A DNA stretch of 26,641 nt from a virus. The stretch is taken from the IMG/VR virus record IMGVR_UViG_3300035438_000665, positions 1 through 26,641 of that record; one strand, given 5' to 3'. Below the pieces are notes generated by a model. That model was not told the origin of the DNA. It saw nothing but the letters and a program-made list of their open reading frames with translations, and searched no databases. Positions 23,039-26,641 of this stretch are shown here, one piece after another (position 1 is the stretch's first letter; every line of letters begins with the position of its first letter). A program made the position numbers and the translations under genes.

Positions 23039-24907
23039 CTATCCGTAGTATTCATTCCATTGGTCAGCAAAGGCTTCATCCAATTGGATTGAACCGCGCT
23101 GTGCTTTCTGTGCTCGGGTTGCCCAGCGATTAGGAGCGTATTGCCCTACTCTACTAGACTGTTGCATCATTTCTCTTACGCGAATAATCGCAAACCAAAG
23201 AGCCATAACGCAGTCAGTTGGGTTCTTAGTATCTGGCTTCCAGGTAATTAATTCCTGTACCAAAGTCTTCAAGCCTTCAGAACCTTCGTTAGAAGGTAAC
23301 TCAATAATATTGTTATCTTGGAATCGTTCATCACGAATAGTTCCAAATAGGCTAGCCATAGATGCTACACCGAATGAGGTGTCCCACTTATTCTTGCCAG
23401 TAAAGTGTGAGTTCAGTTGGCAACCATAAGATGCTAAAAAGTTTCTAAGGTTGTCATCAAGGGCGTAAGCCTTCTGGTGGGCGTTAATTTCTACGCGCAG
23501 TTCTTGAGGACGATACCGCTCAACCCATTCTTCAATGAGTGACTGAATCTTCATCGGTGTAGGCTCCGTCATATTGACGCAATCCAAAACGTAAATTCTA
23601 GAATCTGCCTTATTGTAAGTAACTACAACAGCACCAGTTGCTCCTGCCATAGCAGGGTCAAGACCGATAATAGTATAAGAGCCATCTACATGTTTAGGAT
23701 GGCCAGGTACGCCAGGCTTTAGAGGTCCTCGCTTGCGCATTCCGTTGACGGAACCTGCGACACAGGCAGGTGGGAAGATGGAATCGAATTCGACATCTTC
23801 TTGCTGGTAGACCATAGCCCATACTGACGGTGCGACTTCAGAGCGGCGCTTAAATAAAGAGGGTCCATCCCATTTCGGATAAAGTCCATCATCTAGCACC
23901 TCGTCAATATCGTTTTCCTGGATATTGGTTTTAGGCCAAAGCGTTTTCCAGTTCTCGGGTTTTTCGTCAAACTCTAATACGGCTGGCATAGCACAATAGG
24001 TGAACGGAGTTTTACCGCCAGTCCATTGCTTACCATCGCGTATCATCTTGTACAAATCTATGGGTGCGACACGGGTTCCTACTATAAGCAGTTTTCCATG
24101 CCGCCCCAGGCGGGTGATTACTTCTTTTTGAAGCCATTCAATTTGCTTCTCCCACTCATGGGCATTAGAACCCATCACCACGTCATCTAGGATAATGAGG
24201 TCTGCGCGAGCACCGTAAATCTGCGAACCGAACCCGAGGGCCTGGACAGTTGGGTCTTTCTCGCCAGAATCGCGTCCCGTGCCTAGATAAATCATATCGG
24301 CTGACCATTGTGTAGCATCTGCCTTGTAGCCACCGTTAGGACCGTAAGCGGTCTGTAACTTCATATAGGCTGGGTGACTTAGCCTGGTCTTGATAGCCCC
24401 AAGGAACTTGCGGGCCATGCCTTGAGTCTTGGATACAATAATGACTCGGGCATTAGGATTTGTTACAATAGTGTAAAGTGTATAGTTGGTAGTGATGGTT
24501 GTCGACTTAGCATGTTCAGGAGGAACATTGATAAGGACACGCTTTGGGTCGCCAGGCTCATAAGTCATACCTGCTGGTTGCCATCTTGGCTCACGACCTT
24601 CGATTAGGTCTAGCCAGTTGAGTTGATGGTCAAAGAGGGTAGTGTTTAAAAATTGCTGTGAGAACTCGGGATAAGAGATGTTCTTGAGTTCTGAGAGGTC
24701 AGCCTTGACCCCTTTGCCCGATAAACGGGCTTTGTCCGCTTTGTCTTTAAAGTCTGAATCTACCATAGACCATTGACGGAAGGTAGTATCGTTACGACCA
24801 ACGGCTGCCATAGCAGCGGTAATGGTCGCCCCATTTTCCAATAGGGTTAAGACTTTTGCTTGTGCCTCGTCTTTTGGTACAGATTGTACTCCAGGCTTGC
24901 GTCCCAT
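23039..24907 (-). CDS. terL: Terminase large subunit with N-terminal HTH-like segment
   Basis: A 622-residue packaging motor. The ATPase has a Walker A-like PPEHAKSTT (129-137, lacking the usual second Gly), Walker B LIILDD (237-242) and a coupling motif LLIVGTR (273-279). The RNase H-like nuclease has IIGLDPAMAGATG (Asp417), RVEINAHQ (Glu473) and NPTDCVMALWFA (Asp565) as its likely acidic triad. Residues 10-62 form an extra segment, KVLTLLENGATITAAMAAVG followed by DTTFRQWS, reading like a helix-turn-helix as found in small terminase subunits; no separate small subunit gene lies next to it. ATG 24907 follows GGGACA. The protein cuts concatemers and pumps DNA through the portal encoded downstream. 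Confidence 0.95.
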   Translation of the reverse strand: MGRKPGVQSVPKDEAQAKVLTLLENGATITAAMAAVGRNDTTFRQWSMVDSDFKDKADKARLSGKGVKADLSELKNISYPEFSQQFLNTTLFDHQLNWLDLIEGREPRWQPAGMTYEPGDPKRVLINVPPEHAKSTTITTNYTLYTIVTNPNARVIIVSKTQGMARKFLGAIKTRLSHPAYMKLQTAYGPNGGYKADATQWSADMIYLGTGRDSGEKDPTVQALGFGSQIYGARADLIILDDVVMGSNAHEWEKQIEWLQKEVITRLGRHGKLLIVGTRVAPIDLYKMIRDGKQWTGGKTPFTYCAMPAVLEFDEKPENWKTLWPKTNIQENDIDEVLDDGLYPKWDGPSLFKRRSEVAPSVWAMVYQQEDVEFDSIFPPACVAGSVNGMRKRGPLKPGVPGHPKHVDGSYTIIGLDPAMAGATGAVVVTYNKADSRIYVLDCVNMTEPTPMKIQSLIEEWVERYRPQELRVEINAHQKAYALDDNLRNFLASYGCQLNSHFTGKNKWDTSFGVASMASLFGTIRDERFQDNNIIELPSNEGSEGLKTLVQELITWKPDTKNPTDCVMALWFAIIRVREMMQQSSRVGQYAPNRWATRAQKAQRGSIQLDEAFADQWNEYYG

Positions 24908-24926: not shown

Positions 24927-24998
24927 GCGCCCCAGTGGGAATCGAACCCATACTTCAGGATACGTAGTCCTGCGTGCTGTCCATTAAACTATGGGGCT
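24927..24998 (-). tRNA. tRNA-Arg (anticodon ACG)
   Basis: On the minus strand AGCCCCA (24998-24992) pairs with TGGGGCG, with only the first pair (A-G) mismatched. T8 and A9 follow, then a D arm containing TTTAATGGACA, a phage-typical D-loop with GG. The anticodon arm is CAGGA-CTACGTA-TCCTG with a perfect 5-bp stem, anticodon ACG at 24963-24965. The T arm is ATGGG-TTCGATT-CCCAC, with its outer pair mismatched. No CCA is encoded. T at position 37 (normally purine) and the mismatches suggest a divergent phage tRNA. It lies 19 bases before the terminase ATG and is co-oriented with it, so it may be cut from the leader of the late transcript. Confidence 0.85.
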
Positions 24999-25152
24999 AT
25001 GTTGGATTGTACTTCAGGGCCAGGGGCGACCTGGATATTTCCCCTTTTCACCACCAAGTAGATATTCCACTTTCTGCGAGAGGTGTCAGCCTCTAATTGG
25101 TGTCCAACAATTCTATTAAAAACGCCTTATTAACGGTTGGGTTAAACGGCAT
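24989..25152 (-). pseudogene. Possible short gene split by a frameshift
   Basis: ATG 25152 reads MPFNPTVNKAFLIELLDTN and stops at TAG 25093-25095. At a run of five T (minus strand; A at 25118-25122) the -1 frame is open for about 45 codons and reads VFNRIVGHQLEADTSRRKWN and further, ending QVAPGPEVQSNIAP at a TAG (24989-24991) just inside the tRNA 5' end. Joined at the T run, the two give about 57 residues. GGGA lies upstream of the ATG. This could be a decayed gene, a homopolymer sequencing error or a programmed -1 shift. An open frame of this length is not rare by chance, so the call is weak. Family not recognised. Confidence 0.3.
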
Positions 25153-25225
25153 AACTATCCCAATATTATTATATATTATCTATATTTAAGATTAGGAGCG
25201 AAGCCTTAGCGTAGCGACTAATTAA

Positions 25226-25254
25226 AATCTATACATATAAGATAACCTGTTCAA
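25226..25254 (-). promoter_or_regulatory. Candidate leftward promoter
   Basis: On the minus strand TTGAAC (25254-25249) and TAGATT (25231-25226) are separated by exactly 17 bases. It would transcribe the tRNA, terminase and downstream genes. The match is four of six to each consensus box and the region is AT-rich, so a chance match is possible. No other leftward pair was better. Confidence 0.4.
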
Positions 25255-25434
25255 ACATGTAAATCCGAACGTAGTTCGGGTATAATATACTGATAATGTC
25301 CGTTTTGTATGCATTTTAGTATATATCACCCCCACTATAATATAACAGAAAATTATTGGTTGACTATATAATAGCGCGCGGAGCCAAGTTAATAAACCCT
25401 AGGGTCAAATCAAATGAACTGAATTGTCGACAAA

Positions 25435-25480: not shown

Positions 25481-25509
25481 TTCTCAGGGGGCTATCAGTT
25501 TTCTCTCAG
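25481..25509 (-). repeat. CTGAGA iterons, minus-strand array of three
   Basis: Read on the plus strand, TCTCAG occurs at 25482-25487 and 25504-25509, with TATCAG (one mismatch) at 25493-25498. The starts are exactly 11 bases apart, so all three lie on one face of the helix. They are the reverse complement of the CTGAGA iterons further right. Co-operative binding by one regulator facing leftward transcription is inferred. Confidence 0.55.
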
Positions 25510-25526
25510 CCAGTAAATAAAATAAT

Positions 25527-25542
25527 TCGAACAGATGTTCGA
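25527..25542. promoter_or_regulatory. LexA (SOS) box 1
   Basis: TCGAACAGATGTTCGA is an exact match to the actinobacterial and mycobacterial LexA consensus TCGAAC-N4-GTTCGA. It lies 150 bases upstream of the rightward promoter and beside the iteron array that faces left, so it may control leftward transcription. Confidence 0.85.
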
Positions 25543-25553
25543 TACAGGTTAGG

Positions 25554-25569
25554 TGTGACGGCGGTCACA
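25554..25569. promoter_or_regulatory. Crp/GlxR-type palindrome
   Basis: TGTGACGGCGGTCACA contains TGTGA-N6-TCACA, the consensus of Crp-family regulators including the actinobacterial Crp and GlxR proteins. It lies 12 bases right of LexA box 1. Binding by a host cAMP-responsive regulator is inferred; a phage-encoded regulator using the same half-site is possible. Confidence 0.65.
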
Positions 25570-25583
25570 GTTCCCTACATGTT

Positions 25584-25602
25584 CCTGAGAATTTCCTGAG
25601 AG
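25584..25602 (+). repeat. Paired CCTGAGA iteron, unit A
   Basis: CCTGAGAATTTCCTGAGAG: two CCTGAGA cores with starts 11 bases apart. The same 19-base design recurs at 25621-25639 and at 26506-26524, differing at few positions. Confidence 0.7.
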
Positions 25603-25620
25603 CCATGAGCAGTGCCGGAA

Positions 25621-25639
25621 TCTGAGAGAATCCTGAGAA
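25621..25639 (+). repeat. Paired CCTGAGA iteron, unit B, abutting the -35 box
   Basis: TCTGAGAGAATCCTGAGAA: cores again 11 bases apart, ending four bases before the TTGATA box. A protein bound here would touch RNA polymerase at the promoter, either activating or blocking it. Confidence 0.7.
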
Positions 25640-25643
25640 TGAG

Positions 25644-25672
25644 TTGATAATCGGCTGGGAATATGGTAGGCT
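25644..25672 (+). promoter_or_regulatory. Promoter of the rightward gene
   Basis: TTGATA (25644-25649), a 17-base spacer and TAGGCT (25667-25672) form a good actinobacterial housekeeping promoter, with transcription expected to start near 25679. LexA box 2 covers about +11 to +26, a position where LexA would block it, and iteron unit B is directly upstream. Confidence 0.75.
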
Positions 25673-25689
25673 AAGTTACTGAGCAGTAA

Positions 25690-25705
25690 TCGAACAGATG
25701 TTCGG
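25690..25705. promoter_or_regulatory. LexA (SOS) box 2
   Basis: TCGAACAGATGTTCGG matches the consensus TCGAAC-N4-GTTCGA except at the last base, and shares the same N4 core (AGAT) with box 1. It sits just downstream of the predicted start of transcription, as expected for LexA repression of the gene at 25757. Confidence 0.82.
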
Positions 25706-25711
25706 AAATCT

Positions 25712-25728
25712 CACTTTATTATAAAGTG
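25712..25728. promoter_or_regulatory. Palindrome CACTTTATTATAAAGTG
   Basis: Perfect 8-base arms around one central base, in the untranslated leader between LexA box 2 and the start codon. It could be an operator for another repressor or an mRNA hairpin that affects translation. Nothing else like it was found in the window. Confidence 0.55.
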
Positions 25729-25756
25729 CCGAAATGGTGTTGAAATCTCCAAATCC

Positions 25757-26449
25757 ATGCTAAAATTTTCTCAATGGCAAACTCGCCAGATAAACGAAAT
25801 GGATAAAAAAATGACCGCTTCAAAAAATGCTCCAAAGTCAGTTAAAATCAACACTTTCGACACCTCTCTACAAACTGCTTACGCAAAATTTATTGAGTCA
25901 GCAGAAAATCAAAATATCGAGGGTCTAAATTTCATAGTCGAACTTAATGAAATGTTAGAAAATGGTCTGACTCAAGAAATCGCAAAGGCTTCAATGAAGG
26001 AAACCGCGAAAGATGTCAAAGTTAAGCCTTCAGTTCTGGCTTCACATATTCCCGCAATCTCAACTGCCGCCGCGATTATTGACCGCTTTAATGCTGAGAT
26101 TTCTGACCATAAAGTCAGCGCGATTTTAACACTGGCAGTTCGCGTAAATTGTGACGTCAAAACCGCTAACGCTAAAAAACATATCAAGCAATTCGCAACT
26201 ATCGCGGAACTGGCTGAAGGAACTGCCACGAAAGCAGAATCTCAAGCCCGCGATAAGGGTGAGGAATTGGAAACTGAAATCGTTGAGAAGGCTGAGGCAA
26301 TTACGCTTGAGTCGGTACTAGATGCGCTTGATGTTTACATCTCGACTAAGTCGCTGAAAGATTTAACTACTGCCGATTTGGCAAAGTTAAATAAGGTAAT
26401 TTCGAAACTGGTTACAGTTCAGAAAAATACTCAAGCCCTCGCAAAGTAA
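25757..26449 (+). CDS. Unrecognised helical protein, SOS-type promoter, monocistronic
   Basis: The only clear rightward gene. From ATG 25757 it gives 230 residues (MLKFSQWQTRQINEMDKKMT), but neither this ATG nor 25799 has a ribosome-binding signal. ATG 25811 (MTASKNAPKSVKINTFDTS) has GGA about eight bases upstream and could be the true start, giving 212 residues. The protein is predicted nearly all helical and has no membrane segment. Blocks include AYAKFIESAENQNIEGLNFI, AKDVKVKPSVLASHIPAIS and KKHIKQFATIAELAEGTATK; the last third is acidic and coiled-coil-like. No Walker, HTH, nuclease or protease motif was recognised. It is controlled by a LexA-box promoter, flanked by iterons and closed by a terminator. 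Its product may bind those iterons as an autoregulator, but this is a guess. Confidence 0.8.
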   Translation: MLKFSQWQTRQINEMDKKMTASKNAPKSVKINTFDTSLQTAYAKFIESAENQNIEGLNFIVELNEMLENGLTQEIAKASMKETAKDVKVKPSVLASHIPAISTAAAIIDRFNAEISDHKVSAILTLAVRVNCDVKTANAKKHIKQFATIAELAEGTATKAESQARDKGEELETEIVEKAEAITLESVLDALDVYISTKSLKDLTTADLAKLNKVISKLVTVQKNTQALAK

Positions 26450-26457
26450 TCTGAAAG

Positions 26458-26493
26458 AAAAGCCCTCGCCCAGAAAATCGGGCGGGGGCTTTT
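26458..26493 (+). terminator. Intrinsic terminator of the rightward gene
   Basis: AAAAGCCCTCGCCC (26458-26471) pairs with GGGCGGGGGCTTTT (26480-26493) in a 14-bp stem with one T-G pair and an 8-base loop; the run of five T (26490-26494) closes it. It begins nine bases after the stop codon, so the gene is transcribed alone. Confidence 0.92.
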
Positions 26494-26494
26494 T

Positions 26495-26641
26495 CATGCC
26501 CGAAACCTGAGAGTTTCCTGAGAAAAGGCTGGGAACCAGCCGACACAAACCAACACAAACTTTCTGCCACCAGCCGCCCGCCGAGAAAAACTGAATTCGT
26601 GCGCCCACCCGCCGACACAAACCCGCCGCGCCCGTCAGCCC
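26495..26641. promoter_or_regulatory. Post-terminator region with iteron and G-poor repeats
   Basis: No gene is seen. After the iteron pair (26506-26524) and GGCTGGGAA (26527-26535, also at 25653-25661 within the promoter spacer), a 13-base direct repeat GCCGACACAAACC occurs at 26539-26551 and 26611-26623, with a partial copy AACACAAAC at 26552-26560. The plus strand becomes C-rich and G-poor, unlike the rest of the window. It probably belongs to the control region of a next gene beyond the edge. Confidence 0.5.
26506..26524 (+). repeat. Paired CCTGAGA iteron, unit C
   Basis: CCTGAGAGTTTCCTGAGAA, with the same 11-base spacing as units A and B, located 12 bases beyond the terminator. It is followed by GGCTGGGAA three bases later, copying the element near the rightward promoter. 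Confidence 0.7.

Follow-up and report, generated by a model that had tools for sequence, protein, structure and literature searches.

The phased CTGAG repeats at the right end of a 26.6-kb viral record are, we propose with good confidence, operators for a host response regulator of the MprA/TrcR type (OmpR/PhoB family). That these repeats act as operators is well supported at the level of sequence, and their motif matches the box that OmpR-family response regulators of actinobacteria use, in which monomers sit head to tail on direct repeats with an 11-bp period. The same motif lies at the chromosomal targets mprA, sigB and pepD, at the promoter of a related regulator in genomes resembling the likely host, and upstream of the terminase gene in a subset of related phages, together with predicted boxes for LexA and CRP. 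Such an arrangement points to a virus that senses the condition of its host.

Results

Phased repeats in the control region

The window, that is the whole stretch of 26,641 nucleotides that was analysed, carries a leftward block of terminase, portal and capsid genes, with an intergenic control region and a lone gene towards the right end. Its relevant features are:

23039-24907, minus strand: large terminase subunit, pointing away from the control region and used as the seed for finding relatives
24927-24998, minus strand: tRNA-Arg(ACG), between terminase and control region
25482-25510, minus strand: triplet in 11-bp phase facing terminase (TCTCAGG at 25482, degenerate TATCAGT at 25493, TCTCAGC at 25504)
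25527-25542, no strand assigned: LexA (SOS) box with the perfect actinobacterial pattern, TCGAACAGATGTTCGA
25554-25569, no strand assigned: CRP/GlxR-type box, TGTGACGGCGGTCACA
25584-25601, plus strand: predicted response-regulator box pair 1, CCTGAGA-ATTT-CCTGAGA
25621-25638, plus strand: predicted response-regulator box pair 2, TCTGAGA-GAAT-CCTGAGA
25646-25651, plus strand: candidate -10 element GATAAT, a weak consensus match 7 bp after the array
25690-25705, no strand assigned: second LexA-type box, TCGAACAGATGTTCGG, with one end mismatch
25811-26449, plus strand: lone gene of 212 aa, predicted all-helical product, of a family typically divergent from terminase
26460-26494, plus strand: intrinsic terminator of the lone gene, a G+C-rich hairpin followed by five T, read directly and absent from the terminator scan list
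26506-26523, plus strand: predicted response-regulator box pair 3, 3' of the terminator, CCTGAGA-GTTT-CCTGAGA

An earlier interpretation made from the letters alone (the sequence-only reading) had described three plus-strand pairs with 11-bp spacing, and all three are present, at 25584, 25621 and 26506, with exact spacing; the unit at 25621 (TCTGAGA) matches in its core only. It had also described a minus-strand array at 25482, 25493 and 25504, of which the two outer units are exact CTGAGA cores but the middle one is CTGATA on that strand (TATCAGT on the plus strand), one base off. Its view that the phasing is hard to explain by chance is borne out, since the phased pair CTGAG-N6-CTGAG occurs three times in the window against an expectation of 0.047 per shuffle and a maximum of one among 2,000 dinucleotide-shuffled versions of the window. 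All three pairs lie within 25584-26523 and none elsewhere, so that the phased motif is not equally dense across the window. CCTGAGA itself occurs nine times across the window against 2.1 expected, a count that no shuffle reached, with exact copies in this region at 25584, 25595, 25632, 26506 and 26517 on the plus strand and at 25482 on the minus strand. The second pair starts 26 bp after the start of the last unit of the first, and a gap of 25-26 bp between clusters is seen again in related arrays. The relative L001 has a minus-strand triplet of the same period (CCTCAGC-TCTCAGC-ACTCAGA) at the equivalent place, and in L098 and L112 a box pair follows a terminator, as the third pair does here.

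Other repeats accompany the array. Just past the third pair, at 26542-26560, stands GACACAAACCAACACAAAC, a 10-bp direct repeat that is also found in L098, L112, L211 and L220, and repeats of ACACAAAC with 10-bp spacing are present in 21 of the loci gathered by their terminase. An AT-rich stretch at 25150-25360, in which GATAACC, GTTCAAA and the palindromic CCGAACGTAGTTCGG stand, is similar in L001, L013 and the cultured phage E7 and is a possible terminase promoter or origin element. A search of GenBank phages gave no DNA match for the control region.

The motif among related phages

Scanning viral contigs for CCTGAGA-N4-CCTGAGA returned at least 120 stretches; about half of the pattern matches were isolated, probably by chance, and were left out of use. 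In dozens of viral stretches three, four or five units follow one another at the 11-bp period, with CCTGAGAGTTT as their consensus; the phages concerned have a G+C content of about 45%, and the arrays often stand beside a 622-aa terminase frame. Thirty phage records, most of them picked because they carry the motif, held 97 phased pairs against none for a reversed control pattern. To avoid choice by motif, 80 loci were gathered through the terminase alone, 61 of them with at least 700 bp of upstream sequence. Upstream of terminase, 23 phased pairs were found in 11 of these 61 loci and none of the control pattern, and there were no phased pairs in 324 kb of terminase and downstream sequence from the terminase-seeded set. 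The upstream regions also show an 11-bp autocorrelation peak: a hexamer recurs unchanged after 11 bp about six times as often as it does downstream. Neither the lone gene nor an array is present at the equivalent place in the cultured phages E7 and F5, and E7 has one isolated phased pair inside a small reading frame; with the motif in 11 of 61 related loci and these two phages lacking an array, it is not essential to the phage lineage.

The other two predicted host-type boxes recur in the same regions. CRP-type boxes number 57, in 44 of the 61 upstream regions, with none in the 324 kb of terminase and downstream sequence, and in one group of relatives (such as L232, L238 and L251) its distance upstream from the start of terminase is constant at 225-227 bp. 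The predicted box in the window has the pattern TGTGA-N6-TCACA that is conserved upstream in relatives. Among relatives this CRP/GlxR-type palindrome is better conserved than the CTGAG motif. LexA-type boxes number 16, in 15 of the 61 loci. The window box fits TCGAAC-N4-GTTCGA, the pattern found before lexA and recA of presumed hosts. Each of 12 low-GC host-like genomes has one or two copies of TCGAACNNNNGTTCGA, some of which precede lexA, recA or a small conserved gene, and a 16-mer identical to the window box is present in three low-GC actinobacterial genomes.

Arrays in individual relatives differ in setting. The 96-kb phage L037 has four separate CTGAG arrays, at 1858, 2690, 3804 and 6257, all in one orientation and before small same-strand genes; they are a candidate phage regulon, and this placement fits promoters better than origin iterons. 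In L014, L033, L046 and L081, 11-bp-period repeats of GTAACA or TGAACA type lie immediately 5' of CCTGAGA pairs and resemble MtrA or PhoP/RegX3 boxes, so that mixed response-regulator arrays are possible. Loci gathered by their terminase showed no enrichment of GTAAC repeats, the MtrA-type pattern.

The motif in bacterial chromosomes

Across 84,980 species genomes (257 Gb) the 18-mer CCTGAGAGTTTCCTGAGA gave 12 matches, slightly above the 7.5 expected from size alone, yet three actinobacterial matches (L127, L128 and L134) are followed at once by a response-regulator/kinase operon. Among 396 Actinomycetota genomes there were 33 occurrences of CCTGAGA-N4-CCTGAGA and four of the reversed pattern. 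Three of these (L151, L170 and L172) stand 16 bp upstream of a gene that we take to be mycobacterial mprA, from its sequence, its HtrA-type protease neighbour and the target set; another (L163) is upstream of an MprA-like gene, and six are 59-114 bp upstream of sigB. A looser scan placed CTGAGA-N5-CTGAGA 98 bp upstream of an HtrA-like protease gene in L307, about 2.2 kb from the mprA box, a gene that by its position beside mprAB is pepD, and a similar site precedes an HtrA-type protease in another lineage (L292). In mycobacteria pepD is immediately 3' of mprAB, and sigE, sigB, acr2 and pepD are direct MprAB targets (PMC3062566). Since sigB and pepD are published targets, an unsupervised scan with a phage motif had returned known targets of one response regulator.

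For Corynebacterium glutamicum MprA a different motif, TKTTAAGAAM, has been assigned (PMC12113857). No MprA-specific model was found in NCBIfam, and no MprA came up among solved structures. 'MprA box' is a name for the motif here and not proof of orthology.

The likely host and its regulator

The window terminase is 80.7% identical to those of E7 and F5, phages grown on 'Ca. Planktophila' and belonging to a group first cultured in 2023 (PMC10202952), and because of this identity the low-GC freshwater order 'Ca. Nanopelagicales' (acI) is the most likely host. A rhodopsin search for Nanopelagicales in the phylum sample gave no small low-GC genome; a class-level sample supplied them, and MprA homologues were fetched from 25 small genomes of class Actinomycetes. 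Judged by size, G+C content and class, the small low-GC genomes appear to resemble the likely host.

In 14 genomes (G+C 41-51%) the best hit was a regulator of one clade, 46-51% identical. Its own promoter holds an exact CTCAG-N6-CTCAG pair in eight of the 14 and partial pairs in the rest, while none of 16 other regulator loci has an exact pair; the box would thus stand at a related regulator's own promoter in the presumed host. The only exact CTGAGA-N5-CTGAGA of the genome in G466, G537 and G560, and one of two in G569, lies 22-23 bp from the start of the MprA/TrcR-type gene, and the box at L314 shares 18 of 19 bases with the phage box at 26506. Among mycobacterial proteins its closest relative is a TrcR-like protein (59%), with MprA behind it (49%), hence the name MprA/TrcR type. 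No OmpR-type DNA-binding domain (Trans_reg_C) was found in 28 phage records, comprising the window and 27 relatives, several of them fragments, so that a host protein probably reads the motif.

The lone gene and its product

The lone gene probably begins at 25811 (212 aa) instead of 25757, since alignments with L001 and the other homologues start at MTA; the L001 protein is 80% identical. Iterated profile searches gave 44 homologous frames, the window gene being counted twice (once through a second locus), and the family usually lies 0.5-0.9 kb upstream of terminase and divergent from it. The sequence-only reading had called the product an unrecognised helical protein, and this description holds: the model is all-helical (mean pLDDT 87), and searches of Pfam, PHROGs, PDB and viral fold libraries gave nothing usable, with phrog_2403 a weak hit. 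The model had no match among solved structures and one unnamed weak match among viral models. No Rep homology was found in the protein, and tblastn gave no homologue in GenBank phages.

Discussion

Which protein reads the repeats

The sequence-only reading had suggested that the neighbouring 212-aa protein binds the repeats, for autoregulation or partition. Its gene is flanked by boxes, L098 and L112 share the layout of array, gene, terminator and array with a distant homologue, and the protein is lysine-rich as well as helical. However, gene and motif are independent among the 50 terminase-seeded loci with at least 2 kb upstream (four with both, 23 with the gene only, four with the motif only and 19 with neither; Fisher p = 1.0). 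Relatives that keep the gene and lack the phased motif, which that reading had named as evidence against itself, make up 23 of the 27 gene-bearing loci, and four of 23 gene-less loci have the motif; L001 retains both gene and triplet. No helix-turn-helix (HTH) or other known fold was found in the protein, and in bacterial chromosomes the motif sits at response-regulator, sigB and pepD promoters. The repeats are thus probably not operators of the adjacent gene's product, and we regard binding by this protein as quite unlikely.

A replication origin is also unlikely; on that view the repeats would be iterons or helper sites, with DnaA boxes and AT-rich DNA next to them. The stretch at 25150-25360 is AT-rich, DnaA boxes are found upstream of terminase in 14 of 61 loci (30 boxes, against six downstream), and in L001, the closest relative, three DnaA-type boxes at 910-945 (TTATCCACA or near variants of it) adjoin the CTCAG triplet and two LexA boxes. 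The window, however, contains no DnaA box, the 96-kb phage has its four arrays before small genes, and the same box is promoter-associated in hosts, although origin and promoter functions could coexist. Least probable, and in our view very unlikely, is a phage-encoded regulator of another fold, such as a WhiB-like protein or a small excisionase-type HTH protein. Phages of this group do encode WhiB (L001, PF02467; PMC10202952), and the right-hand part of the phage genome is missing from the window; but WhiB is described for all members of the cultured family (PMC10202952) whereas the motif is in a minority of loci, and 11-bp direct repeats with a CTGAG core lie at host response-regulator, sigB and htrA-type promoters.

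A model for the control region

On the preferred reading, in which a host MprA/TrcR-type regulator binds the repeats, envelope or secretion stress would lead the phosphorylated regulator to fill the tandem boxes. The filled boxes would recruit RNA polymerase to promoters abutting the arrays, rightward for the lone gene and leftward for terminase, and the pair past the terminator would serve the next operon onward; L098 and L001 have a good promoter 140-210 bp farther on. PhoB is an established activator that acts in place of a -35 element. An activator role of this kind is proposed here because TATAAT-like hexamers are concentrated right behind arrays, within 12 bp (22, compared with roughly four in each 6-bp bin elsewhere, the arrays counted not all being independent) and because GATAAT lies 7 bp past the array, which may stand in for a -35 ahead of it. 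We infer the identity of the binding regulator, activation over repression, and the biological purpose. CRP would add a metabolic input, and LexA would keep the promoters silent until DNA is damaged, with the box that separates array from gene as a site of repression.

It is possible, and we suggest it tentatively, that in phages of abundant freshwater actinobacteria one integrated control region reads at least three host signals and so sets the time at which early genes, late genes or both are expressed, no phage repressor being needed. The inputs to such a switch would be envelope stress through the MprA/TrcR-type regulator, DNA damage through LexA and carbon or energy status through CRP.

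Relation to known systems

The L5-type stoperators of mycobacteriophages are likewise repeated asymmetric intergenic sites near promoters and terminators, but they are bound by a phage repressor, whereas the window yielded no repressor of that sort and its motif is of host type. Mycobacterial MprA boxes (mprA, pepD and sigB) share the CTGAG half-sites, direct repeat and 11-bp period in our genome scans, with one pair per promoter in contrast to the tandem pairs in two orientations of the phage. Phages of Alphaproteobacteria carry CtrA-binding sites, a case of 'lytic deferment' (PMC9437464), and resemble the window in having promoter-located sites for a host OmpR-family response regulator (predicted here); phylum, regulator and motif differ, and the window adds LexA- and CRP-type boxes in one region. 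Cyanophage Pho boxes are read by host PhoB (Zeng and Chisholm 2012, via PMC10976474), and they too tie phage genes to a host two-component system through OmpR/PhoB-type sites. The cyanophage input is phosphate, whereas for the window a regulator of envelope-stress type is predicted, at a core control region for terminase and early genes. The temperate phage GIL01 is LexA-controlled (PMC4551915), with host LexA boxes in the phage control region, as predicted for the window.

Host response-regulator sites in phages are thus already known (PhoB, CtrA). A limited search of open-licence literature found no report of an MprA/TrcR-type phage case or of MprA/TrcR combined with LexA and CRP. The motif is strict enough to serve in locating such phages and in tracing the regulon of the host. 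The hosts of the nearest cultured relatives, 'Ca. Planktophila' ('Ca. Nanopelagicales', acI), are a dominant group among lake bacteria. If the proposal is true, the co-option of host response regulators by phages extends to Actinobacteria, where it is combined with SOS- and CRP-type input, and the host-type operator set would give a testable account of how the timing of phage infection is tied to host stress.
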